Shown: positions 34,565-63,983 of the stretch, piece after piece
Numbering within the stretch: position 1 is the first letter of the stretch
Layout of the letters: each line of letters opens with the position of its first letter
Notes under the pieces: generated by a model
Database searches by the model: none
What the model was told of the DNA's origin: nothing
The model's input: only the letters and a program-made list of their open reading frames with translations
Origin: Caenorhabditis elegans
Taxonomy: Eukaryota > Nematoda > Chromadorea > Rhabditida > Rhabditidae
Length of the DNA: 64,000 bases
Direction: 5' to 3'
Assembly (NCBI RefSeq): GCF_000002985.6
Contig: NC_003280.10
Span: 5,762,501-5,826,500 of the forward strand
Program-made: the position numbers and the translations under genes

Positions 34565-34948
34565 CTAAGGGTTATATTCGATTGGCAGGTTCTTACGACG
34601 GACCATACCATCTCCCTGGAACCACTCGCGGCGGAACTGCTTGGCAGCTCCATCCGGGGTGTTGGTCCATTCGACGGTGATACGGTCGTTGTTGGTGTCT
34701 TCCTGTCCAAATGCGAATGCATCACAGGAAACTGCCAGAAGTACAGCTTCCTTTGGGTCCAGCACTCCACATGGTGGATCAACTCCAAGTCTCTTCATGT
34801 TGGTGGTCTTGATACCGTACCCAATACGGCGAGCAGAAGAGTTGATCACTTTAATGCGATACGTGTGCTTGTCGTCGTACGGAGCATTGAAGACGATCTT
34901 TGTACCCGGTTGGGTCTGGATGTCTCCTGGTGGAACGGATTGGGCCAT
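34565..34948 (-). CDS. Major sperm protein (MSP)
   Basis: Single uninterrupted exon of 127 codons, the exact family length, starting [15 protein letters not shown] and ending [13 protein letters not shown] is the small immunoglobulin-like cytoskeletal protein whose filaments drive amoeboid sperm crawling; released MSP also signals oocyte maturation. Start chosen: the family N-terminus MAQSVPPGD, although the frame is open 11 codons further upstream. It differs from the other two intact MSP copies here by Arg instead of His at residue 31. A TATATAAG box lies about 60 bases upstream (35006-35013). It forms a divergent pair with the copy at 35427. One of the two is probably msp-142 and the other msp-63 (recalled); I cannot tell which. 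Confidence 0.95.
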
Positions 34949-35426
34949 GGCGACTTCTTGTAGGAGTTTTTGGAAACTCAATGAAGAATTTATGAATTCT
35001 TTGAGCTTATATAGGGAGGAATTTTATAAGTCACGTAGATCTTTAACCTAAGTTGTAACGCAAATTTGTAATTTTGAATAAGAAAAAAAAATCATAAACA
35101 TAACATATTTTTTAAAGTTTCAACTATTAAAATAACCAAAAATACAATGAAGTATAACTTGCAACACTTGTAGAGATTCCTAAAAGGTAACTTGGCCTTC
35201 TGTAGAGCACAAGTTCAAGTTTTTTTAAAAGTTTTCCTAGCGCCCTCTTAATAGTTGAAACTTTGTAAAATATGTTATGTCTTTGATTTTTTCTTATTCA
35301 AAATTACGCATTTTTGCGTGAAAAAAGGTTAAAAACCCACGTGGCTAATAAAATTCCTCCCTATATAAGCTCGAAGAATTCATAAAATCTTCATTGAGTT
35401 TTTAAAAACTCCTACAAGAAGTCGCC
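34949..35426. promoter_or_regulatory. Divergent MSP promoter pair inside an inverted duplication
   Basis: The 478 bases between the two start codons are two upstream regions in mirror image. Each has, from its ATG outward, CTCAATGAAG-type leader sequence, a TATATAAG box (35006-35013 on minus, 35362-35369 on plus), a CACGT motif about 25 bases further, and an AATTTGTAATTTTGAATAAG-like block. The mirror continues to within about 130 bases of the centre. The homology includes the coding regions, so the whole pair is an inverted gene duplication. Confidence 0.75.
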
Positions 35427-47446: not shown

Positions 47447-47830
47447 CTATGGGTTATACTCGATTGGCAGGTTCTTACGACGGACCATACCGTCTCCTTG
47501 GAACCACTCTCGGCGGAACTGCTTGGCAGCTCCATCCGGGGTGTTGGTCCATTCGACGGTGATACGGTCGTTGTTGGTGTCCTCTTGTCCAAATGCGAAT
47601 GCATCACACGAAACAGCCAAGAGCACAGCTTCCTTTGGGTCGAGAACTCCACATGGTGGATCAACTCCAAGTCTCTTCATGTTGGTGGTCTTGATACCGT
47701 ATCCAATACGGCGAGCAGAAGAGTTGATCACTTTAATGTGATACGTGTGCTTGTCGTCGTACGGAGCATTGAAGACGATCTTTGTACCCGGCTGGGTCTG
47801 GATGTCTCCCGGTGGGACGGATTGGGCCAT
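47447..47830 (-). CDS. msp-64: Major sperm protein (MSP)
   Basis: Single exon of 127 codons, MAQSVPPGD to IEYNP, protein identical to the copy at 35427-35810. Start chosen at the conserved MAQSV context (CCATGGC); the frame is open for 11 more codons upstream. The symbol is recalled as the MSP gene of this clone and is less certain than the family. Its 3' flank (about 47345-47446) is duplicated next to the MSP pseudogene at 56027-56331. Sperm-restricted expression is expected from the family. Confidence 0.93.
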
Positions 47831-47996
47831 GGCGACTTCTTGTAGGAGTTTTTGAAAACTCAATGAAGCATTTGTGAATTCTTCGAACTTATATAGGGGG
47901 CTTCTTATCAGCTACGTAGATCTTCACCGTTTGGTCTTGACGTTTTTAATGAATTTTTACATTTTATCATATTTTTGAAAATAAAAATAAACTTCC
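47831..47996 (-). promoter_or_regulatory. MSP promoter with TATA box and GATA site
   Basis: Reading upstream from the ATG: a TATATAAG box (47888-47895), then GATAAG (47904-47909 on minus), CTACGTAG, and an A/T-rich block ending near 47995. MSP genes are known to carry GATA sites bound by ELT-1-type factors; here only the site itself is seen. The same module occurs without a gene at 54950-55092. Confidence 0.6.
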
Positions 47997-48078
47997 ACGT
48001 GAATTTTTATTTCATTACAAATTGTAATTTGTTATTTCCACGTATATTTCAATCATTCCCGACTTTTGGTTCGCAACA

Positions 48079-49224
48079 ATGCTTACAATTGCTCGTCGTT
48101 TTTCTGGTTCTTCCATCTGCCGAAAACAGATTACTGTCGGATCGAACAATATTCAAGTCATCAAAAATATTCAAGATCGGGAATACGAGGCAATTTGGAA
48201 AACGGTTAGTTTCAGTTCGATATCAATTTATAAAAATTCAACATTGAAATTGCAGATTGGCTCAACTCGTTCCGATTTGAAAAAGGATGATATCAAAAAA
48301 TTCAAAGAAGCTTGGGGCAATGATTATCATCAAACGCTCACATTTTTGAAAGATTCTGATCGATTGATTGCATCCAATTCACATGTTGTATTCCGCCCTT
48401 TGAAGGATAGCAAAGGACTTGAAAACCTCGTTTTTAGAGGAAACTTGTGGATTTCTCCGGATGTTCGTGGATCTGAGATTATGGATATCACTGACAAACA
48501 ATCGTATGATGTTGGTTTCTCAGTTGGAAATAATTCAATGGCTTACGCAACAAAGAAAACAATGGATCAGTACAAGAATCTGACAGGCTCAATGGATCAT
48601 CTGCACAAGTACTACGTCTCGAACTATGACTTTGGTGATCTGTGCATTCCGAAGGATTTGGATACATCTGGAATAGTTGTTAAGGTATTTTAATTCCTCA
48701 CATTTCCAATTAATTCAATTTCATTTAGAATGCTCGCGATGTACCTGATACTGATATCTTGAAGTATGATGCCAAAGTTTTCAAATATGAAAGATCAAAA
48801 TACGTTCTTGGACAAATTCGAGAAGACTTCGGACGAGTTGCATACAACGAGAAAGGCGACGTCATCGGAATTGGAGCAATTTCTGTGTATCCATCTGGTG
48901 AATGTGCAATTACTCCGATGTATGCTGATGACATCCGCATTGCTCGAACAATTCTGAAAAATATTCTCGAGGAGATGACGCTGGACGCTGAAAAGTACTG
49001 GAGACTCCAAATTCGGTCTCATGATCAACATACCGGAAGCTATGGGTAAGAATCATAAGTAACTTCTTCTCATCAGTTTTATCTTTTTCAGATGGATTCG
49101 TCCATTCTTGTCTACAATGACCCATCGTTCAGAAGTTTGCACTTTGATGTGCGACCACAAGGAAAAAGGAATGGACTTCTCCAAAGTTTATAGTACTTTC
49201 CATGCTGATAACTGCCCCATTTGA
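48079..49224 (+). CDS. GNAT-like nematode protein (DUF1248-type)
   Basis: Exons 48079-48204, 48256-48684, 48729-49045 and 49092-49224 give 334 residues. The first intron is 51 bases with no in-frame stop, so its retention would add 17 residues. The N-terminus (MLTIARRFSGSSICRKQITV) is basic and could be a mitochondrial targeting signal. The centre is acetyltransferase-like: LGQIREDFGRVAYNEKGDVIGIGAISVYPSGECAITPMYADD resembles the GNAT strand 4/5 region, and RSEVCTLM lies near the end. This resembles a nematode-expanded family I recall as DUF1248; substrate unknown. The gene is divergent from msp-64 with about 250 bases between them. Confidence 0.7.
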
Positions 49225-49874
49225 TTTTTCGAATAAATATTTTAGTTTCAATTGTTTCACAGAATTATTTTTACTCAAATTACAGAATCAAATCATATCT
49301 CAAATACACTCAAAAACGTGATATTTTCAAAATTCATCTTCATCCGATTCAATTCATTCAATTAGATTCGCGTTTCTTCTACGTTGACGTCCAAATTTTC
49401 TCCCATCTGAAGATTCAGAGCTGAAATTAAGTGAATTCTTCAAATTCTGATTGATTACAAACAAACTTCTAAATCGAATCCTTCTCATTTGCCTGAAATT
49501 GGATGAATCTGTTTTCTATGGTTTTCAACGGTTTTCTATGGAGAAAGAGAAACATCGATCAAATTTTTGTATTTTACCAATGTTTTTTGATTGGGAGAGT
49601 GCCAATAATTGTTTAGGTGATAGAGCAAGCGAACTTCCTTCCAGAAAAATATAGAAAAATACAGAAAAAACCAGAAAAATTGAAAGGAGCAGTTTCAATT
49701 GATATTAATATACCTAGTTTTCGTATTGAAATTCTCAGTAGTGATGTCTTTGCAAAATGATGCTCAAAAATAGTTCGTCTCACAATCCTAAATATCAAGC
49801 CAAATTAAAAAAAAATGCCCAGCAAAAACTTTATTATCATGAAATGTCAAGTATGAGGATGCACCGTTGGCAAT
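49225..49874. other. Intergenic region between convergent genes
   Basis: AT-rich, holding 3' ends of the GNAT-like gene (AATAAATAT near 49232) and of wago-5. No coding feature supported. Confidence 0.4.
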
Positions 49875-52800
49875 CTAAGCATTGATGCGAGTCTTGTTGA
49901 AGACAGTGTTCTTGTATCCGAGTTGTTTTGAAAGTTCCTTGAGATGCTCTTCATGGTATTCATTCGCTTCATTAGGTCCATGAGCCCTGTAAAAAACTAA
50001 TGATATTGGCATTGAAAAAAGGAAACATCCATCTTCTCGGACCAGAGATCTCTTCCACGTTTTGCATACTCGTTGGCAACATAAAGAGGAGTCGGAATTG
50101 AAGTGCTCAGTGCCACGATTTGATGGTGATGGCAAAGAGTGTATGTGAGCTCCTCAAGGCGATCCATCGGAGCGTTACAGTCATCTGCCAGAATAGTGTA
50201 GAGAGGAGTCTTGGCAGTTCCTTGCAGAGTTGTGTGTCCATTGAGGAAGAATTGCTTGCATGCAGGATTGGTGACAGCGCTATCCAAGACGATACCCGGT
50301 GGGATGTTCATCTCTGTCGCTTTTCCGCCGGAACGAAGCTGAAAAGAAGAGATAAAACGGGAATTATAGAATAAATTTACCTGATCACGGAAAAATCTGT
50401 AACTGTGCTCCTTGGTGACGATGATGTAAATCAGATTGATATCTTTGGAGTATCCCTGAATGGTAGCACGTGCCAGTGGAATTTCGTAGGCAAGAATAGA
50501 CGCATGAGAGCCATCCGATGCACCACTTCTATAAATGATGATCCGCTTTGGCAAAGTATTGCGATTCATCTCAAACAGATCGATGGAACTTTTCAAAACG
50601 TCTTCAATTGATGCCATTGTCTGTAAAAAGTTACATTGTGATTAATAGAGATGCTCGATTTTTCTTACATCCTGTCCTGAAGGGGCCAAAACGAAATCTC
50701 CAACAAACTCGTGGTTTGCAACAGCATTTGAAGCGAAGCCAATAATTTGTGGATTAAGATGTCCTTTGTTATCCATCATGTACTTCGTTCCAGCCGGTGG
50801 TGCGGAAACGCCAACTCCGATGATCAATTGTTCGTCGGTCATGCTCTTCTTTGCATCCGAGACCGTGTAGTTGAGACCACCCAACTTCATGTTAGTTTTG
50901 TTGATGACGTTTTCCAGAGTCAATCTCTTTCCATCCTTGACAACAGAGTTGGCTTTGGAAATTTTCATATCCTGTATAACCATCATCGACTTTTGTTCGA
51001 GGGCCTTGTATTTCTCTGAAATTATTTAATTAATATTTTTGAAAAAAAAAAAAATAACGGCTTACTGTGGAGATGAGTGATAGAGTCATCGGTGATCACG
51101 AAGGCAAATTTGCATTTGCTCGCAGCCGCATTTTCCAGTAGGGAAATTATGTTATCCATGTGACAAAGGGATGTTTCACTTGGAGGCTTGATTATCATTC
51201 CTCTCTTCTTGCAAGCATCAATGAACATTCCGGTGAATTGGCTTAAAAAATTAAGTTAATTCGAGAAAACCATATCATTCTTACCTCAGGTCACTAACGG
51301 AGAATCTGGAATTTTGATTTCCAACAGCATACAAAGCCCATAAATCTTGAAAAGCAGCGGGTTTCACAAATGACCCTGGTGGTGGACGCCATTTTCCCAA
51401 CTCAGACTTGACCGTTGATCTCTGGTATCCCAGTTCTTTCCTGAAAAAATGAACATATTTATTGTTAATAAATTGCACAAACTAACCTTCAAAGGCTCTG
51501 AATAAACTTTGATTCCAAGAGCGTTGAGGAGCTCATTCTCCGCTGTGATGTTGACAGCAGTTTTGCCCTTGATGATGATTCTCTGGCGAACATCAGGGAG
51601 AACCGCACATTCCTTCGTCGTCTTCTGAGACTGAGTTTGCTGAGGAATAGTTGCACGCTGATTTTTCGAGATGGTCATCAATTCAGCCGGGAAGTAATTG
51701 TTGTTTCCTCGATCTTTGCAAACCACCAAATTGGCTTTCGGGTATTGAAGATTTATGCTGTATTTGTCCCTGAAGTACTCGGCGATTGAACACGTCTTCC
51801 CATCGGGCAACTCGAATCTCGTCCCTGTGGCACTTTCGTGGAAGATTCCTACGATTCTCAGATGACGCTTTCTGCTCGTGTACATTGAATAGCAATCGAG
51901 TCCTTTAATCACTGGAGTAGCCTTCTCACGAGCCATACTACTGAGCCCGTTTGATGGATCTTGTCCCGTAATCTCAAAGAGCTTCTGGATCACAGTTTGC
52001 TCTTTATGGAAAGCAGCTTTCATGCCATCAATCACAAGAGATGGATTGTTCTGTCCACGACCGAACGGACCTTCAATGAATTGGATCGTCTTCTTGAGGC
52101 CAGGATACAGCGCTTTTCCGTCGCCAACGTCGACACAATCTCGCTGATCAAATCCTTCCTCGGTGGCGTTGAGGAAATATACTTTTCCATGCTCGAAACA
52201 TCCGAAACGCTTTCTGAAATAAAACGATTCTTAAAGCATTTTCGAAACTAACTTACGTTTCCCTCGTGCAATGTTGATTCAAAGCAAGTTCCAGGAATTG
52301 AGTGTATTCACGATTGTTCACTTCAATGTTTTGATCAGCAGTACGCTCGCCCAGGATTTTAGCAGAGATGGTGATGGAATTGTCTCGTGGTGCATGAATC
52401 TCAAGAGAGATGCACGGCAACGTCTTGAGTTCGTCGTTTCCCGTGTCCGCTCCATTGATTTGAAAGACTTTAGACTTTGTCTGGTTGCAATCCAGTTCCG
52501 AGAACAAATTGATCGTAGTGTAGAGAGTGGATTGGCCGTCATATACGATATGATTCCCGTCTTTCATTTTGAAGAAATCTGGGTTCTTCTCCACTGCATT
52601 GAAAAACAGGTTGCAGCATTTCTCACGACGATCCAACACTACGAAGTCCTCTTTTCCTTTTTTAGTGAAGGTCACTTCCTTCGTGGAAGTCAAATCGGCC
52701 TTGGCATGAACCACGAATCTGTGAACTGTTGTTTCCTTGGTAACTTCCACTCCGAAGATGTTTGTTCCAACATCCACTTGTTTACCCAATGTTCCCGGTT

Positions 52801-52982
52801 CGGTTGGCGTAGTGTAGATCTTAGCTCCACTTTCCACCTGCAAATAGGGAAATATAAACAAATTTTCGAAATGCAAAGAAACATACGTTCAATTCTTTCA
52901 GACGATTGATGCATGCATCATTGGCAGTCGTTTGGTAGAGCTTTTGATCATTTTGATCCAACAGGACAACGCCAGTATTCAT
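49875..52982 (-). pseudogene. wago-5: WAGO-class Argonaute, probably a pseudogene
   Basis: Minus-strand exons are 52982-52887, 52837-52257, 52213-51487, 51440-51285, 51241-51066, 51015-50669, 50620-50381, 50338-49986 region and 49986-49875. They encode an Argonaute: N-terminal and linker parts, PAZ (IKGLDCYSMYTSRKRHLRIV, FELPDGKTCSIAEYF), MID and PIWI (VSAPPAGTKYMMDN, YRSGASDGSHASILAYEI, LYVANEYAKRGRDLW), ending NKTRINA. PIWI lacks the slicer Asp-Asp-His: Ser-containing IIGFASN and YRSGAS replace the two Asp, and GTAKTPLYTI lacks His, as in worm secondary-siRNA Argonautes. Damage: the 5' end abuts a transposon fragment and the only in-frame ATG (52982) lies in it. Exon 3 ends in phase 0 while exon 4 needs phase 2, and the last junction has the same mismatch, so canonical splicing meets early stops. 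Other junctions fit. Symbol recalled. Confidence 0.8.
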
Positions 52983-53858
52983 TCAGCCAATTCAACTCGT
53001 GCCTTTCTCAGCAGCAAGAAAATTAAACTCCTTAAATGGCCAGCTTGTTCACCGGACCTCAATCCGATCGAAAATATGTGGGCTTCCCTCGTGAGACTCG
53101 TGTACGCTAATGGAAAACAGTATCCGAATGTTGCTGCTCTTAAAGTCGGAATTGAGAATTCATGGAACGCCATATCAGCTACAGAGATGAAAAATCTGGT
53201 CAATTCGATGCCTAATCGAATCTTTGAGGTCATCGCCAAGAATGGAGGTCCTACGAAATATTGAACTTTATCTAAGTTAATAAAATCTGTTGTGTTTTTT
53301 GATTTCTAGAGGATGGTGAATGCGCGAAGGCCAGTAGTGCTATCTCGTACTAGTAGTATAATAAAAATAAGAGTTGCAAATCTTTAAAAAAATTTCAGAC
53401 CGATGAAATAGATGTTGTAGATCATCTCAGTTGATTCTGGTGCTGATTCAAGTATTGGGCGCCGCGCAGCGCCCTCTAACATAAAATTAGGCGTTTCAGG
53501 ACAATTTTAGAGATCCTATGAATTTCCACTGATAAATTTCTTTTGAAAATTGATTTGCAAGATGTCTGGATCAGTTTGAACTTAAGTCATGAATAAGTTG
53601 TTCTTAGAAAAAGCCAAAAAAAGGGGATTTTATTAGAAAAAATCAAAAATTCGAGGGGGCGCTATAGAAGTTGGGCGGTCGTTTTAGAGACTTTTTGACC
53701 TAGTCTCCTCAGTCTATTGAATTTTTTGATGAAAATTTTGGACAGGGGGTTTTTCGACATTTGGAATCGAATGGCATTAGCAGTTTTTTGTAAAAAATGT
53801 CAGAAAATGGTGAAATGAGAAAAAATAGGGGGGCGCTATAGAAGTTGGGCGCACTGTA
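52945..53858 (+). mobile_element. Truncated Tc1/mariner-type transposon (right part)
   Basis: A plus-strand frame from about 52950 to the stop before 53267 is the C-terminal part of a Tc-type transposase: LIQQDNASIHSA carries the second catalytic Asp and CSPDLNPIENMWASLV the DPN/E box of the DD34E triad. The first catalytic Asp and the DNA-binding domain are missing. The right end is intact: GGGCGCACTG followed by TA at 53857-53858, the typical TA target duplication. The motif GGGGGCGCTATAGAAGTTGGG occurs at 53655-53675 and again at 53829-53849, 174 bases apart, as in Tc3-like elements with two transposase sites per end. The left boundary, where it meets the Argonaute, is uncertain (about 52945-52960). 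Confidence 0.8.
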
Positions 53859-54147
53859 GTACTGATTGCAAAACTATGAAGTTTGTGGTCAAGGTTGGCC
53901 ACATGTTGCAACGTGGAGGGCTTATGATCTGAACTCGGAAGGTTACGGGAAAACAATTATTAGATATTACATTATTTTAAATATTAAAAATCTAAAAAAC
54001 GTTTGAATATCTTATATGAATTTCCAATCACCACGTCAATATTGCTATCTCGTTCAATTTCAAATTTTCATTCATTTTACAATTTGAGTAAGCTTCATCT
54101 CATCGTCTCGAATAGCGATTTTCGTGTCAATTGGACAAAGTTCTAGA

Positions 54148-54753
54148 ATGCCAATTGGAGACTATTTCAATCTCGTTCAGGTATGAATTTTGAGCTCAGA
54201 TTTCCTTTAAAATTTGAATATTTCTGAATTTATTCCTGATTGTGCTGGTCTTCTGCCCATCATGGATCTTGTGCCACGGAAAGAAGAAACCATCGAAAAC
54301 ATCGTCGAGTTGTAAGAAGACCGATTCTATAGAGCCGCCCAAATCGGCAATTGTAAGTTGGAGAATTTCAAGTTCTTTATTTTCATTTTGCAGAAACCTC
54401 CAATAACTGATCCAACACCGAGTATGTTGGCCAAGGCGGGACCAGATGAGAAGAAAGACGAGCCAAAGGATGAGAAAGGAGAGACTAAGAGCCCGGCTCC
54501 AGATGGCGATGCTGCTGCTGCTGATGCAGCAAAACCTGTCGACAAGTCGCAAAAGCCATTCCCCAAGTTTGAGATGCCGACGGAGAGCAAGAAGAAGAAG
54601 AAGATGGCTGAAAATGAGGTTGATAAGAAGGAGAAAATGAAGAATGGGTTCTATCAGGAGAAGTCGGATGAAGATGACACACTTGAGAAAGTGGACAGTC
54701 TAAAGGTTGAACAATCTGATAAAACCAAGAGATCAAAGAAAAATAAGAAATAA
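54148..54753 (+). CDS. Small Lys-rich membrane-anchored protein, family unknown
   Basis: Exon 54394-54753 is well supported: CATTTTGCAG acceptor, frame of 119 codons, Lys/Glu/Ala-rich, ending KRSKKNKK. Exon ending at 54352 (GCAATT|GTAAGT) joins it in phase and encodes a hydrophobic helix (LFLIVLVFCPSWIL) followed by a basic stretch. A likely first exon, 54148-54180, encodes MPIGDYFNLVQ and ends in GTATGA. To keep frame the second exon should start at 54227, but the bases before it are TTTCTG, not TTTCAG. So the 5' structure is unresolved: a non-canonical acceptor, a mutated site, or a different start. If the first exon is right, the helix sits near residues 12-26, with the rest charged and probably cytoplasmic. 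Confidence 0.5.
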
Positions 54754-54949
54754 TATGGGAATTGATTAGTTATGATACACTGAATAAAGGGTTTTTATGA
54801 ATAAAATCGTAGTTTTTTGTTTTGTCAATTTCATAATTTATTCAAAGCCTATTGAATTACTGTATCACTGATTCGCTCAGGATCACTCAGGAGGAACTGT
54901 CTCATTTGCTTTTGCGAATATTTTAGTTGGTGGTATTTTGAAGATTTGA

Positions 54950-55092
54950 TAAAAACTCAATGAACAATTTATGAATTCTATCAACTTATATAGGGAGGGG
55001 GCTTCTTATCAGCCACGTAGATCTTCACCTTTGGGTTGAGACGTTTTTCATTGAACTTTTACATGTTATATTATTTTTAAAAATAAAAATAA
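54950..55092 (-). promoter_or_regulatory. Orphan MSP upstream region, no gene attached
   Basis: This matches the upstream region of the MSP gene at 47447 element by element on the same strand: AAAAACTCAATGAA leader, CTTATATAGGG (TATA box), CTTCTTATCAGC (GATA site), CACGTAGATCTTCACC, GAGACGTTTTT and the A/T-rich block. Where the ATG and coding region should begin (below 54950) the sequence is unrelated. It is a relic of an MSP gene whose body was lost or moved. Confidence 0.75.
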
Positions 55093-56026
55093 TTTTCAAC
55101 GTTTTCTGAGTCAACAAAATTTTTTTTGGTCCCGGCAATCGCCGAATTCTCTGTTGCGATTTGACTAGATCGAATTTTTAAAGGATTGAAGGATTAAAGG
55201 ACGATCCGTTCTTCAAGTGCTATGCACTGCGGATCTGGGATTCAGGTACACTGCCTGGTGGTGATCCCTCTAATTTAACAAACCATATTTCCATCTGTAT
55301 ACACGCAAGACTATTTTTCGAATTCCTCATAACTTTGGAAAATTGCCCAATTTTTGACAAAACCTAGTTTGATACCGTTTAAACCAGGAAAAATACATAC
55401 TTTTACAATATTTCATCAGCTATTTTTTTACGTTTTTAAGTGTAAATTATTCAAAAAAAGACTAGTTTTCTGAAGTTTAAACAAGTTCCTGATGATAATA
55501 AGTCAGTGTAAAACTACCAAATATTGCAAGAATAATAGGGATTTCAGACACCTTTTCAACTGAAGTGTGATTTAAAGAAGGAGTTAAGTGCCAATTCGCA
55601 GAATTGGAGGAACTTTTTTTTATTTTCGGCTGATTTGCTAATTTGCGAAAACGTTGGAAATATTTTTTTTATAGCAAGACACTGAATGGTGTGTATTCTT
55701 GAAATTTTTTCCTGTTTTCTTCAGATATTTTTAATCAAATTTACTCATTTTTATATCAATTCGAGAAACCTAGAATATGTCCAGTTTTCAAGTTCAAATC
55801 CAAATCTCATTCAAATCTCAAAAATTTCAACAAAAATTTTAAAAAACAAAGTTTGCCAAAAGTTTGAAGTTTCAGCAATAGCAGAATTTCCGTTTGCCAA
55901 AAAATATAGTACTATGTATAATTTTCTGAAATTCTAGAAATTCCGCCCAGTCGGGGCGCAACGGAAAACTGGACAATTTACATTGTAAGGGGTCATAAAT
56001 TAATGAAAATTTCTAAAAACGATTAA
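55093..56026. other. AT-rich DNA between MSP relics
   Basis: No gene or clear repeat seen. A frame at 55686-55937 has no support. Confidence 0.3.
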
Positions 56027-56331
56027 TTTTATTTTTATTTTCAAAAATATGATAAAATGTAAAAGTTCATTAAAAACGTCAAGACCAAACCACCAACATG
56101 AAGAGACTTGGAGTTGATCCACCATGTGGAGTTCTCGACCCAAAGGAAGCTGTGCTGTTGGCTGTTTCGTGTGATGCATTCGCATTTGGACAGGAAGACA
56201 CCAACAACGACCGTATCACCGTCGAATGGACTAACACTCCGGATGGAGCTGCCAAGCAGTTCCGCCGCGAGTGGTTCCAGGGAGATGGTATGGTTCGCCG
56301 CAAGAATCTGCCAATCGAATACAACCCATAG
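56027..56331 (+). pseudogene. MSP pseudogene lacking its first 49 codons
   Basis: From about 56089 the sequence is MSP codons 50-127 ([15 protein letters not shown] to IEYNP, stop 56329-56331), with no internal stop. Directly before it, 56027-56087 matches the distal upstream block of the MSP gene at 47447 (A/T-rich block, then AAAACGTCAAGACCAAAC). The TATA box, leader and codons 1-49 are therefore deleted. The 3' flank, through CTTATCCTCTAGATCAGCTGG near 56428, matches the 3' flank of that same gene. An in-frame Met could yield a 77-residue fragment, but the MSP fold would be incomplete. Confidence 0.88.
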
Positions 56332-56460
56332 GTTCCTTGTAAAATAAATATTGTTTAATGCCTGTGTTGTTTCTTTCTGTAAATTGAATATATATACACT
56401 TGTCGCTTATCCTCTAGATCAGCTGGCTTCGTCGCTTCGTTGTTTCTACAGATATTTCTT

Positions 56461-56506
56461 GCAAGAATCTTCCGATCGAATACAACCCATAGAACTTCTA
56501 AATAAT
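56461..56506 (+). pseudogene. MSP 3'-end fragment
   Basis: GCAAGAATCTTCCGATCGAA to the stop matches the last 11 codons of MSP ([10 protein letters not shown] and stop), and the following AGAACTTCTAAATAA matches the 3' untranslated start of the copy at 35427. It sits 130 bases after the MSP pseudogene, so it is a second, separate scrap. Confidence 0.8.
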
Positions 56507-58219
56507 TTTTTTCCTGATTCACTGGTTGCTGATTTTATAATTTGAAAAATAATATTGTCTACCATGTTTCCAAATTTCAAAATATGATATTGTGATATAC
56601 GAACTTTCTTTGAATACTTTGTTACAGAACTTCCTCGCATGTATCATTTTGAGAAGAAGTTGTATGTTCGAGAGCCGTTTCTAGAGAACTAACAGAACGA
56701 ATTTTTTAGATTTCAGAATTATCAACAAGATCATATGCAATGCCTTGAATTCATAGATAAGAGATGATGAAAGATGGAGCTGACTGCATTTGAAAGAACT
56801 TTCATTTTATCTATCTAACAATCTAACAATTATTAATAAACAATTATTCATTTTCATTGTTGTGTTTATCATTCGATTACTCGGAAAACATTTTTATTGC
56901 TCAAAATATATATTTTTCTAGCTAACTGGAGTAGTTTCAAAATTGCCATTCGGTTCAGGATAGGCGGTTTCAGGCTTACTTTTGTTTAATTAGTCCCAGG
57001 TCTTCGAAACTCAATGTTTTATTGTGTCCTGTGTTTCCCTTGATTTTCACTAAATTAATTCTGGGGACATGAGAAGGTAATCTTGGAAAATTGAAATAAA
57101 CTACAGTACTCCTCAAAGACACGATTTTAAATTCAAAAAAATCAGTCGTGTCGAGACCCGGTACCGTATTTTGGGTGTTAAAATCGGAAAATTTCGCCAA
57201 TGGGGATACGATAATTTGAGTTTTATATTCAAATTAGATGTATGATATAGGAAAACATTCCACTAACGGGTGTATTTGATTTATTTTGCTTGTATTTACA
57301 AATAATATATTTCGAATGCTCGCCTGTTTCTTGATATTGTCCTCGTGTTGTTCACGGCCGAAGTTTTTCACAATTATCAATAGAGCGCTTCTGAAAACTC
57401 GTCCGCGACAGTGAAAATTTTAATTTTCAGAATTAATTGTTTTTAATTTAACGATTTTAATTAATTCTCTCATTTACTGTTGCAAGATTTTTTAATGCTA
57501 TCTGTTGAATATTTAATTTTATCACTATTTTCAATAATTACGATGTAGACGCTTTATTTGCAATATATATTGCAAACAATATTACAATATATATTGCAAA
57601 CAATATTGCATTATACGCAGATTATTTTCTCCCGTTTTGACAGAATAAAATTAACTTGACAATGTGTGTGTAAACACAGTGACGACAAACTGCGACAATG
57701 AGTCATTCAGGTTTAGTCTTTTGCGAATTAGTTTATTTATAATAATTATATATTATAGGGTTATTGGGATATTTTTTTATCTCACCGTTAATGAAAAATG
57801 TTAAATATATTCCTGTTTCAAAAATTGGCTACAATTTAAATCAATATATTTGTTTTGTAATCATTATCATAGAGGGCCGGGACTCTTCCCACTGAAACTC
57901 AATACTTTTGCATATTTCACATTCTCTTCCTCCGTTGGTTCACCAAAAGAGAAAAGGGACCGACATGAAAAGGAAACGAAAGCTTAAAAGAGACGGAAAA
58001 TCGATGTACTAGAGTGCTCGGAAGTAGTTGAGAGGCGCAGAGAGAGAGCTTTCATTCAGAAGACACACGACGTTATTCCTCGCAACGCCTTCTTCTTTTT
58101 AACAATCTTCAATACATTTTAGTGAACTTTCTTTTATTTCTGTTTCATTTAAAAATAGTCTTAAATTTCACTATATTTAATTTTTTTCTTTTATTATCTG
58201 GAATGTTTCAGCTTTCAAC
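56507..58219. other. Upstream region of ehs-1
   Basis: No gene supported. A 24-bp unit (CAATATATATTGCAAACAAT plus ATTR) occurs twice in tandem at 57561-57608. The last 100 bases end in a GAATGTTTCAG acceptor eight bases before the ehs-1 ATG, fitting a trans-splice site. Confidence 0.45.
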
Positions 58220-61098
58220 ATGGATGATTCATACGCGATAGCTACACCGCACAATGATGTTTTTAATCACGCATTCGCAGAGGTAAATATTTAACAATTT
58301 GTAATACGTTAACAATTGTTATATTCCAGATGAACCCTCACGGAGCACCAAGAATAGGAGCTGCAGAAGCAGCTACTTTCCTTAAAAAATCAAACTTGGC
58401 GATGCCTGTGTTAGGCCAGATATGGGAGCTTAGCGACTCTCAAAAAGTTGGATCATTAGATAAGAGAGGAGCATTTGTTGCTTTTAAACTAGTCGCAGCT
58501 GCTCAACAAGGTAACTTTTATTACCTATTTGGAATCATATTTTGTTGAAAATACGATATGCTCAAAAGTAACCTTAACAGCAAAATATTTCAGGGAAGCC
58601 CGTCGCCAATTCTTCCCTCTACGATTCTTCCCTTCAGCCACCACGGTTTGCACCACCTGTACCACCAGCAAACATGCAGCATCATTTCCAACCATCGTTC
58701 CCATCGGTTTGACTGAAAAGTGGTTCCTCTATTTCTAAGTGTTATTATTCAGGTTGGCCGTGCTCCTCCAGTGCCACCACCACCACATCCATCACATCCT
58801 TATTCGATCTCTTCTCAACAATCTTCTCCAGCTCATCCATCGTCAGCTTTTCCACCACAATGGCCGATAACACCAACTGACCAGGTAGCAAAAACTGAGA
58901 ATTAAAAACTTTTAAAAAATCTTTCTATTGGCACGAATAGAGAATTGACAGTTATTTTCCTTTACAGATTTGATCAAATATTCTTGTAATTATTTCAGGC
59001 TAAATATGACTCCATCTTCCAATCATTGAATCCTGTAAACGGAAAATTGTCTGGTGCACACGTACGCCCGGTTCTGATGAACTCTGGACTTGATGCTCAT
59101 GCTCTGGCTCGAATTTGGGAACTTTCGGATCAGGACAAAGATGGAAACCTTGATCGAATCGAAATGTCTGTTGCACTTCATCTTGTATACCGATCACTTC
59201 AATCAGACCCGGTTCCTGCACAGCTCCCACCAAATCTCATTCATCCTTCGAAAGCAATGTATGCTCACAGCTCACCGAATTTCGCTGCTCCTCCACATCC
59301 TCCACGTCCGATGATGGGATCGAGAGCAGGATCTGTGACGTCATTGGATGATGTGAACATGAGTCAATCGTATTCTGCAACGATGCCACGTGCATATCCA
59401 CCACAACCAGGTCGTGCTTACTCTGCACAGGCTCATGTGAATGGATCACGAACCAGTGGTGCATCAACTCCGATATCTGCTTCTCACTCGATTCACTCAT
59501 TTCCTGCTGGTGAATGGCCTATCAATACAGGAGATTATGCTGATCAATTTGCTCAAACTGATACGAATAAGGATGGATTGGTTGATGGCATGGATATGAG
59601 AGCTCCCATGATGACTACTGGATTGAGTGCACAGATATTAGCACATGTCTGGGCATTAGCAGATATAAAAAAATGTGGACAGTTGAATTTGGAGCAATTT
59701 GCTTTGACGTAAGTCTTTCAAGTTTACCAAATATCTAGTGTAACTAAATATTAATTTTCAGAATGCATCTTCTTGACATGGCAAAACGAGGCGAGTCCAT
59801 CCCATCAGAACTGCCTTTACATCTGATTCCACCTTCATTCCGCCCACCTACGGAACCTTCAGCTTTGCATCATCCTGCTCAATCAGTTTCAACTCCACAG
59901 CTCCCAGAAGCAACTTCGATGGAAATTAAAGAAGCTTTGGAAGGCGAAAACGAAGAGATGAAGCAGCTCGCAGAGTCTATTCAATCAATGCTGGTGGAGC
60001 GGAAAACTGCAGAAGAAGCTGTTTTACAACTAGAAGCTGATATGACTATTAAGAACTCGAGTATCAAAAATCTGCAGGTTGAATTGGCCACCTTGGAGTC
60101 GACAGTTAAACAGTTGGAGCGACAAAAAGGTGAAGCCACACGAAGATTAGCTGATTATGATACTCAAATAGAACAGTTAGAATCAGCATGTAAAGCACAG
60201 AAAGAAACGAAAGAAGATACCGAGAAACGAATGCAACAAATTGATGAAGATGCAAAGAATGCTGAGGACTGTAAAGCAAATGATGAAAAAGAAATGGAAG
60301 AATTGAAAAAAGAAATTGAAATGCTCGATAATCAATTCAAAACTGTTCGTGGAGAAATTGTCAAAGAAACATCACAAAGAGAGCAAAAGGTGGCCGAATT
60401 GACAACTCTAGAACGAAAAGAAGCAAGAGATCAGATACAAATGGAAAAGCTGGATGCTGCAATCGAGAACACGACAAAACTAACAGAACAAGTATCAGAT
60501 GCAGTCGAAAAATCCGAGGAGGAAATGGTTCAAATTCTGAGGTCGCAACAACGATTATTGTCTACTGTAATCGATCAATCGTTGCTATCCGATGACACTG
60601 TTTATGGAGAAACAGCTGGAACATCATCTCAAAATCATGTTCAACAACCACCTGATCCGTTTGCATCCGCCAGAGCAAGTAGGTTTATATTTTTAAGAAA
60701 CAAAAAGAGTTATGAAAACTTTTATTCTGACTTAAAGTTTTGAAATATGAATATATAACATAAATTCAATTTCCAGATCCTGCTGCTGATCCATTCGCCC
60801 AAGTAGATCAGTTCGGCTCATCTGGACATTTTGATGCCGCTTTCCCAACTGATCCATTTGCTCAAGGAGGCTTCCCATCGGATTCTGGCTTCGCACAATC
60901 GGCTCCCGCAAAACCTGCTCCACCTCGCCCAGCTCCTCCAAAATCTGCTCGCGAAACACCTGTCAATGATCCTTTTGCGTAAGTCTTAGTGAGTATCAAT
61001 TTATTTAAAGTCTAAATAATTTCAGCCCATCACAAGGACAATCAACTCAACCGGCTGGATTCGCTGATTTTGCGGACTTTGGATCGGCTTTCAATTGA
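58220..61098 (+). CDS. ehs-1: EPS15-like endocytic adaptor with EH domains
   Basis: Eight exons (58220-58282, 58330-58510, 58594-58706, 58753-58884, 58999-59708, 59762-60678, 60777-60978, 61026-61098) join in phase to 796 residues. EH-like domains occur at about residues 12-80, 164-245 and 335-410. The second has an EF-hand loop DQDKDGNLDRIE, the third DTNKDGLVDGMD. A Pro/His-rich linker separates the first two. A coiled coil (about 455-660) would dimerise the protein. The C-terminus has DPF motifs (DPFASAR, DPFAQ twice, DPFA) that bind the AP2 appendage. EH domains bind NPF peptides of cargo adaptors, placing the protein at clathrin-coated pits; in worms it acts in synaptic vesicle recycling with dynamin. 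Convergent with tbc-2. Confidence 0.95.
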
Positions 61099-61585: not shown

Positions 61586-63983
61586 TTACATACAGTGGCC
61601 AGTATCCTGAAAATAATAATCGCTATATTAGAATTTATTTATATATTACTGTTTACCTTCAATTGTGTCAAATAGAGTTGTCGTTTAGTTTCTATAGTCT
61701 TCTGAGGGAACGGATTCAGTTCGTTGAATGCCACTTGAGCTAGCGACTTGAAGTCAATGATATGTTCTTGAGCTTTGCTGAGACATTGATGAACTGTGCC
61801 TGAAAATTCTTGTTAAAAAACTAATAAATTTAAAGTTGTAAGTCACAAACCAATAGTTTTACATTGAAGAACGTGAGGTTCGCATATTTTGAAAAGTGCC
61901 AGTGCGAATCGAAAAAGAACCTTATTTCCTTCATAGAGGAATGCATCGAATATAGTCAGATAAATAGAATGCGGGAGTACATCTACAAAACACGTCAGGA
62001 ACCAACTGAGCGCGAAAAGTGAAAGATCAACTTCAAGAGCTCTCAAATGTGCAGCCAATTTTGGAAGCTTTTCTGCTACAAGATCGCGGAGAACTTTCTG
62101 ATCGGCAACCGCTCCGATCAGTGAGCTAGTGTAATATCCTTCAGGTTGGAGATGTTCCACACATGCTACAAGGAACCAGAACGAATCCTGCTCATCCAGG
62201 TTTAACAGAGCAATTGCAGCAAGACGATTGAGTCCTTGGCAGTAGCCGACGTGAGAGTTATGGTATCGGAAGGCGTAGAGTACGTTTCGTAGTTTTTCTA
62301 TGTTAGCAGAATCTGGCTCGTCGAAAAGTTTATTCGTGGGCAGAGTTCGAGCGAGGTCAAGATCAATCTGAAAAAATAATATGAGAAACTCGAATTTAGA
62401 ATAATATAAATATACCTGTTTGATGGCTGCATCGTAACTTCCATCCTGCTTCTTTGTTCCAGCCTTTCTGAGCATACTTTGATAGTATCCATTACCCAAT
62501 TCTGCTTGCTTATCCTTCACCCAATGTGTCACAATTATCTTCCATACACGACCTCTGTAGGCAGGTGGTACTCCAGTTCGAATAAGAGTTTTTAGATCAG
62601 GTGAAGACATGATTGCAGTCTGCCGGGATACTGTATTGTTGACAAGGAACGCATCCCACGATTGTAACCATTTCATGTATTCTTCAGATTGTTCCAATTT
62701 CGTTGCTTCCACTACGTCTCCCGCTTTTTTCATGTAAAACGTGGCAGTATCCAAAAGATCATCGCTTTCAGAAAAATCATCCTTTTTATAGAATCCCAAC
62801 TGATCCGTGAGGTTTTGCTGAGATTCTCGAGGTGTTCTTGCCGACTCTTCGAGTAATTCTTTCAACACACCAGGTTCCATTACTGTAGAGCAAAAGTGAT
62901 TATATTATAACAGAAAATTGTTTAAAAACTCACTTTTTCCTGGTTTTGTCGGAGACTTAAAATGGTTTAGAACCATCAAATAACGGCTTTTTAATTGGTA
63001 ATAGCAGGCTTCGAGGTCGAAATTTTGACGAATCAGCTTCTTCTCTCGATCTTCCAGAGATTGAGTGATAGCATGCAATTGGACTATTTCCGCATTCAAA
63101 AACTGATTCTGGGTACGGTATCCTTCTACGAGATCTTGAAGTTCTCCAATATCACGAACATTTTCTTCGTCTAGAACCCTAAAATAAAATACTTTAAAAT
63201 TTAAATTGTAAAAATAAATTCGTACTTCCTGGTAGCTTCTTCACAATCAACTGATGATACATCGACAAGAATGCCTTCAGGAACCTCAACATCCGATACA
63301 AGTCCATTTGCGTCTGCAGGAATATTCGAGCTTCTTTCAGATATCGATCCTAGTAAGTCTTCTCGATTTTCTTCTTCACACATTCGAAGAATAAGCTCTT
63401 CTTTTGTTCGTAATGATTCTCGGAAAGCTTCTACTGATTGTTGCAAATCATTGATCGTATCCTCAAGCCTTACATTTTGATCTTCAAGATCACGAACTCG
63501 TCGAGCATTCATGCTATTCGAAATATGTAATTCGGTGACTTGTCGCTCCTTTTCCAGTATATACTCTCGCATTTCCTCCTTATTATCTCCCATATCCTCG
63601 ATTTTCTGACTAAAATTTCAACAATTTATTATGATTTTAATTAAATAATAAAACTCACAGTGCTTCATTATTTCTTTGAGCTAGTAGAAGAGCAGCTCTC
63701 AGCGAATCGACAACTTCCTCCAGACTTGAAACTTTATCAGACAATTCAATAACTTTCTCTTCAGGAGTTAGATCAACAGAAGATACTGTACCTTTCTGAA
63801 AATTTTACTCATAGTGAATGTTTGATCACTATTTGAACATACTCTACTTCCAACAACTGGTTCATCGGACGTATTTTGCCGACTTCTGCTCCAAGTCGAA
63901 AGATTTCTTCGAATAGCTCGAAAAGGAGCTTCTATACTTTGATCAGCTAGTCGCTTTAATACAGTTTCTGGGCTTTCGATTGT
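61586..63983 (-). CDS. tbc-2: TBC-domain Rab GTPase-activating protein (5' end outside)
   Basis: Minus-strand exons 63983-63843, 63795-63659, 63609-63226, 63178-62934, 62882-62416, 62367-61851, 61799-61657 and 61606-61586 join in phase. The N-terminal part, including any PH domain, lies beyond the right edge. A coiled coil occupies roughly the first 290 residues seen. The TBC domain begins at LIRTGVPPAYRGRVWKIIV. It has the catalytic Arg in IDLDLARTLPTN and the catalytic Gln in YCQGLN, followed by FLTCFVDVLP. These dual fingers stimulate GTP hydrolysis. TBC-2 is known as a Rab5 GAP on endosomes. The last exon of 21 bases (ending GHCM) uses consensus sites; without that splice, translation stops five residues further in the previous exon. 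Symbol recalled from its place beside ehs-1. Confidence 0.93.

Follow-up and report, generated by a model that had tools for sequence, protein, structure and literature searches.

The DNA analysed here, referred to as the window, is a stretch of 64,000 nt from C. elegans (C2:5762501-5826500, where we take C2 to be LG II). It carries a WAGO-clade Argonaute locus of nine exons, which we take to be wago-5 (ZK1248.7) on the basis of its position and its neighbours (Table 1). An EH-domain protein and a TBC-domain protein are encoded nearby; the latter is presumably tbc-2, for which we assume the designation ZK1248.10. The former fits ehs-1, which is ZK1248.3 (PMC7460582). These neighbours place the locus among further ZK1248 genes of LG II. 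Piwi matches were obtained at five separate places on C2, and the LG II part of a published allele list likewise contains five Argonaute genes, namely alg-2, C06A1.4, F58G1.1, Y49F6A.1 and ZK1248.7 (PMC2726613).

Two nearly identical major sperm protein (MSP) frames lie on the minus strand of the window (47447-47911 and 34565-35023), and a third, partial MSP-like frame is seen on the plus strand at about 56085-56340, beyond the 5′ side of wago-5. This appears to be a sperm-gene neighbourhood, which might bear on the male-gonad expression reported for wago-5 (see below). A DUF1248 protein frame (48028-48693, Pfam E=8.6e-55) is located downstream of wago-5 on the opposite, plus strand.

Table 1. 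Features of the wago-5 locus and its surroundings, in positions of the window.
Feature	Position	Strand	Remarks
wago-5 (ZK1248.7) gene	49875-52982	minus	WAGO-clade Argonaute of C. elegans
ATG opening the WAGO frame	52980..52982	minus	within transposon DNA, antisense to the element
Exon 1	52887..52982	minus	codons from the transposon, followed at about 52951 by WAGO codons (start of wago-1 homology)
Exon 2, N domain	52257..52837	minus	wago-1 alignment; ArgoN and HRDE1_NRDE3_N Pfam matches, both under curated cut-offs
Exon 3, PAZ domain	51487..52213	minus	PAZ Pfam match E=1.1e-25
Lesion A, deletion scar	51440..51443	minus	ancestral acceptor and net 23 coding bases lost relative to wago-1
Exon 4, start of MID	51285..51440	minus	frame lost with strong acceptor 51440, kept with weak acceptor 51421
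Exon 5, MID	51066..51241	minus	wago-1 alignment
Exon 6, PIWI	50669..51015	minus	Piwi Pfam match E=1.1e-14
Tract identical to wago-1, 95 bases	50766..50860	minus	inside exon 6
Exon 7, PIWI	50381..50620	minus	Piwi Pfam match spanning exons 7-8, E=1.8e-51
Exon 8, PIWI	50031..50338	minus	ends at the ancestral donor position; wago-1 alignment
Lesion B	50029..50030	minus	former GT donor of intron 8, now GG; GT in aligned wago-1 and wago-2
Exon 9, conserved C-terminus and stop codon	49875..49986	minus	
Tc3-like (Tc1/mariner) DNA transposon, right half	52957..53858	plus	right terminal inverted repeat kept
EH-domain neighbour	58990-59712		fits ehs-1
TBC-domain neighbour	61843-62904		fits tbc-2

All nine exons are colinear with those of wago-1. 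The PAZ and Piwi matches are above the cut-off, the ArgoN match is below it, and no stop occurs among the 888 codons of wago-5 that were tabulated, a table that leaves aside codons interrupted by introns. This is in agreement with the earlier note, which had described a WAGO Argonaute with open exons. Apart from junction A (at intron 3, see below), the only gaps within exons relative to wago-1 are of 6 and 3 bases. The protein encoded by exon 6 matched C1:7237455 with 93% and C1:5371324 with 90% identity, and all other loci with 66% or less. We take these two loci to be wago-1 (L019) and wago-2 (L020), respectively, which fits with the first being intact and the second broken. At the wago-1 locus, a frame of 931 residues stays open across nine exons, which are separated by eight introns of 40-48 bases. 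Both wago-1 (R06C7.1) and wago-2 (F55A12.1) are assigned to LG I (PMC2726613).

To assess the exon junctions, splice sites were scored with a matrix trained on 22 donors and 22 acceptors from wago-1, wago-2 and the six undamaged introns of wago-5. At junction A, the acceptor of intron 3, the alignment to wago-1 shows a 24-base gap at 51442. Exon 4 is 156 bases long in wago-5 vs 176 in wago-1, and wago-5 has a 3-base insertion at 51414. At the junction, exon 4 has thus lost a net 23 coding bases, and the frame is shifted. A strong acceptor (TTTTTCAG/G) now occupies the place of the lost wago-1 acceptor and the codons following it. We scanned donors from 51640 to 51460 and acceptors from 51481 to 51380, allowing introns of 38-250 bases. 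Within this stretch the pair 51487/51440 had the top score, 20.6. As the earlier note had stated, this join is out of frame: its product stops after residue 480, numbered from the ATG at 52982, so the best-scoring splice sites do not yield the frame of a functional Argonaute.

The same note had held that no site nearby repairs the frame. Judged by the splice scan, acceptor 51421 would do so, though at a cost. The pair 51487/51421, the best in-frame pair among those listed, scores 7.0, which is 13.6 below the canonical pair. At -1.6, the acceptor itself is weaker than any of the 22 in the training set (1.7 to 11.5), and the out-of-frame acceptor 51440, located 19 bases upstream, scores 12.0. 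Splicing at 51421 would also remove a conserved L2/MID-entry segment, which aligns to a conserved strand of Argonaute-1 (GRVLPAPILQYG in 4KRE). This segment was clear (E 1e-7 or better) in four of the 11 other Argonaute loci searched (L020-L023) and in weak alignment (E 0.004-0.07) in three (L003, L007 and L008); for the other four (L001, L002, L004 and L005) no alignment was usable.

The second damaged junction, B, had been placed correctly in the earlier note, but the join given there, 50001/49986, does not describe it. An intron of this kind would be only 14 bases long and would not start with GT, while the eight introns of wago-1 measure 40-48 bases. The actual defect is the lost donor of intron 8 (50030-50029). 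Scanning donors 50120-49995 and acceptors 50060-49930 for introns of 38-250 bases, we found that donors 50070 and 50043, each combined with acceptor 49986, form the first- and third-ranked pairs (scores 11.3 and 9.0) and are in frame. Here, too, a repair that had been thought missing would therefore be at hand, albeit from weak donors, whose scores of 0.7 and -1.7 lie below the training range of 5.2 to 13.0. Conceptually, in-frame sites at both A and B give a product of 903 or 894 residues that is open from end to end. Retention of intron 8 together with the in-frame acceptor at A would give an 881-residue protein that lacks the conserved C-terminus.

The 5′ end of wago-5 carries a third lesion, the largest of them, which the earlier note overlooked: the native start is gone, along with some 20 codons. 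The homology to wago-1 DNA begins at 52951, ahead of which wago-1 has about 20 native N-terminal codons, and the ATG that opens the wago-5 frame is located in a transposon fragment. When the stretch 48501-58500 was compared by blastn (E up to 1e-5) with the 10 kb around wago-1, the single match was 52951-49872, and no wago-1-like 5′ piece was found past the transposon. N-terminal processing by DPF-1 has been reported for WAGO-1 and PPW-2 (PMC10101689), and this feature would be absent from wago-5.

The fragment belongs to a Tc3-like (Tc1/mariner) element and is broken off within its transposase, at the join to wago-5. It has a DDE_3 Pfam match (E=1e-12) and retains one inverted repeat, in which a 23-base motif occurs twice, 174 bases apart. 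In a longer copy (L024) the transposase matches the Tc3 transposase 1U78 (E=7.6e-44), and the inverted repeats show at least 473 matched bases. The element is not Tc3 itself, as there are many differences from 1U78 over the 135 aligned residues. Identity of the fragment to six copies is 97.9-98.9% (900-905 bases), to one further copy 97.7% (831 bases), and to two deletion-bearing copies 92.5-93.6% (903-904 bases). The 21 bases around the ATG at 52982 are identical in seven of the nine other copies; of the remaining two, L014 has one change in this stretch, outside the ATG, and L016 ends short of the ATG. The simplest history is an upstream insertion followed by a deletion from within the element into exon 1.

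To evaluate the age of the gene and of its damage we compared substitutions among the three closely related genes. Between wago-5 and wago-1, dS is 0.805 and dN 0.087, a ratio of 0.108 (809 codons); the ratio is 0.109 for wago-5 vs wago-2 and 0.095 for wago-1 vs wago-2. A dS of about 0.8 to wago-1 combined with a low dN/dS indicates that the wago-5 copy is old and that purifying selection acted on it for a long time. Three disabling lesions thus lie on a background of purifying selection (omega about 0.11). In the Tc3-like fragment, four of the 862 sites that could be compared carry private substitutions (0.46%), and the length of the wago-5 branch works out by arithmetic at roughly 0.57 synonymous changes for each site. 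By this count the element would have arrived, and the 5′ end hence been truncated, within approximately the final 1% of the wago-5 branch, an estimate with a wide error as it is based on four changes. Conversion among the element copies could make the fragment seem younger than it really is. The fragment is also not unusually young among the copies, the nine others having 0 to 12 private changes. From these comparisons the breakage looks young, while the gene copy itself looks old. The term “young pseudogene” used in the earlier note is consistent with the omega of about 0.11, the open exons and the four private substitutions of the 5′ fragment, though that description got one junction wrong and missed the 5′ truncation.

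Branch omega values from singleton changes are 0.154 for wago-5, 0.052 for wago-1 and 0.064 for wago-2, and the wago-5 branch differs from the other two pooled (Fisher p about 9e-5). This nonsynonymous excess could mean that decay has gone on for longer than the transposon implies. Long neutral decay does not account well for its distribution, as most of the excess is found outside PIWI. In exons 6-8, where it is slight, there are 12 nonsynonymous and 52 synonymous changes in wago-5 vs 10 and 62 in wago-1 and wago-2 together; in the remaining tabulated exons the counts are 66.5 and 89.5 vs 19 and 75. The counts for exons 6-8 are to be read with the 95-base tract in mind, which sits in exon 6 and depresses both classes of change in wago-5 there. 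Relaxed or altered constraint before the breakage is at least as likely an explanation of the excess as long neutral decay.

The tract itself stands out of a wago-5/wago-1 alignment of about 80% identity. A run of 95 bases was not reached in any of 5000 codon-order permutations (mean 33.5, maximum 77). Sites at which wago-5 shares its base with wago-1 but not with wago-2 number 10 within the tract and 104 elsewhere; those shared with wago-2 alone number one and 109. This pattern suggests a probable ectopic gene conversion between wago-5 on chromosome II and wago-1 on chromosome I.

Parts of this picture have been published. According to the passages on wago-5 in Seroussi et al. (2023, PMC10101689), the WAGO-5 protein was undetected by microscopy and by Western blot of a fusion, the tiling-array signal was low, and the gene is targeted by WAGO-1-associated 22G-RNAs; the authors state that their own data support wago-5 being a pseudogene. 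That wago-5 is a probable pseudogene and a WAGO-1 22G-RNA target is therefore already known, and the suggestion in the earlier note that the locus is a target of small RNAs was in print. A study of wild isolates, in the part dealing with the gene, describes wago-5 as “not expressed at all” in five strains, yet leaves it outside the pseudogene list and counts it among the putatively functional Argonautes; with N2 as reference, it gives a nucleotide diversity of 6.59E-4 and “pseudo” alleles in 48 of 403 isotypes (PMC10763538). Male-gonad-specific expression of wago-5 has also been reported (PMC6383947), the gene has been tagged N-terminally (PMC6218216, PMC10101689), and it is mutated in the MAGO12 strain (PMC10154208, PMC5635688). 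In part of this literature, as far as its passages on the gene go, wago-5 is still treated as coding. In the main-text passages surveyed on wago-5, no transposon or splice lesion is described there. Going beyond these passages, we set out how the lesions are built, date them relative to the history of the gene and point to a possible reference bias in the calls for wild isolates.

Taken together, wago-5 is very probably an old duplicate of wago-1 that was a working Argonaute gene for the greater part of its history and was recently broken in the lineage of the reference genome. The three lesions are of different kinds, the exons between them are open and bear the signature of selection, and the fragment at the 5′ end is close to other copies of its element. 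In the sequence of events that we infer, a Tc3-like element would have inserted upstream of wago-5, and a deletion from within it into exon 1 would have taken the native start, about 20 N-terminal codons and any promoter. Intron 3 would have lost its acceptor to a second deletion, and intron 8 its donor to a base change. Splicing at the strongest sites at A would then end translation early, after about residue 480, leaving most of MID and all of PIWI unmade, and the lesions and 22G-RNA silencing may jointly keep wago-5 off, so that no working WAGO-5 protein would be expected. The start in the transposon and the two damaged junctions may also explain why N-terminal tags gave no signal.

As a counterpoint, there are frame-restoring splice sites at both junctions, and the ATG supplied by the transposon is in frame. 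Wago-5 could accordingly be a functional male-germline Argonaute of about 900 residues that uses this ATG together with acceptor 51421 and, at B, either of the donors 50043 and 50070. Each of the two in-frame products is open throughout, the two donors belong to the first- and third-ranked pairs at B, and the signature of purifying selection and the reported male-gonad-specific expression (PMC6383947) likewise speak for it. We nevertheless consider it unlikely, since the acceptor that it requires scores below every training acceptor and competes with one scoring 12.0, and since its use costs the segment aligned to the conserved Argonaute-1 strand. Moreover, the reported fusion protein was unseen, and targeting by 22G-RNAs suggests silencing (PMC10101689).

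The reported targeting (PMC10101689) would also suit a mainly non-coding role, in which wago-5 is a transcribed pseudogene whose stretches shared with its relatives seed 22G-RNAs that also regulate wago-1. Of 3056 22-mers in the locus, 119 have an exact counterpart in the wago-1 region and 79 in the wago-2 region, and the 95-base run is identical to wago-1. However, the 22-mers in common with wago-1 make up only about 4%, and gene conversion accounts for the long run without any regulatory role; we regard this explanation as very improbable. We give hardly any credence to the idea that the lesions reflect faults in the assembly of the reference. The three differ in kind, one of them being a 902-base transposon fragment with private changes of its own, and the N2 genome is a finished one. 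The breakage of an old, long-working wago-5 remains the reading that we favour.

It is conceivable, if rather doubtful, that wild C. elegans still segregates intact wago-5 alleles and that N2 carries a recently broken one. Wild-isolate calls made against the N2 reference may then be inverted at wago-5: working alleles would be scored as high-impact because they were called against a broken reference, and the 48 of 403 “pseudo” isotypes reported (PMC10763538) would include such alleles. Wago-5 would in that case be a male-germline Argonaute that is absent from the standard strain of the field.

Among the known genes, wago-1 is the intact counterpart of wago-5. The two share nine exons and the same intron places, and the same residue is encoded in 742 of 886 aligned codons, but wago-1 has its own start, its intron-3 acceptor and its intron-8 donor, all three of which are gone in wago-5. 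Wago-11 (Y49F6A.1) resembles wago-5 in having been judged a pseudogene because its protein was undetected, and differs in that low mRNA by RT-PCR is reported for wago-11 only (passages on both genes in PMC10101689). Wago-2 (F55A12.1, LG I) is the closest relative of wago-1; like wago-5 it is broken, with a mobile element near its 5′ end, and it is listed among the pseudogenes in the wild-isolate study as far as its passages on the gene go (PMC10763538). The element is a different one, a near-palindromic repeat within exon 2, and wago-2 has in addition an in-frame TGA in exon 5. The insertion (L020:2847-3636, about 790 bases) has arms that are about 90% alike, and some of its pieces match other copies in the genome at up to 99-100% identity. 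Of the three genes in the WAGO-1 group, two have thus been broken in this genome, each with a mobile element near its 5′ end. Elements of this kind are what Argonautes silence, and the group offers a small case in which Argonaute turnover brought about by them can be tested.
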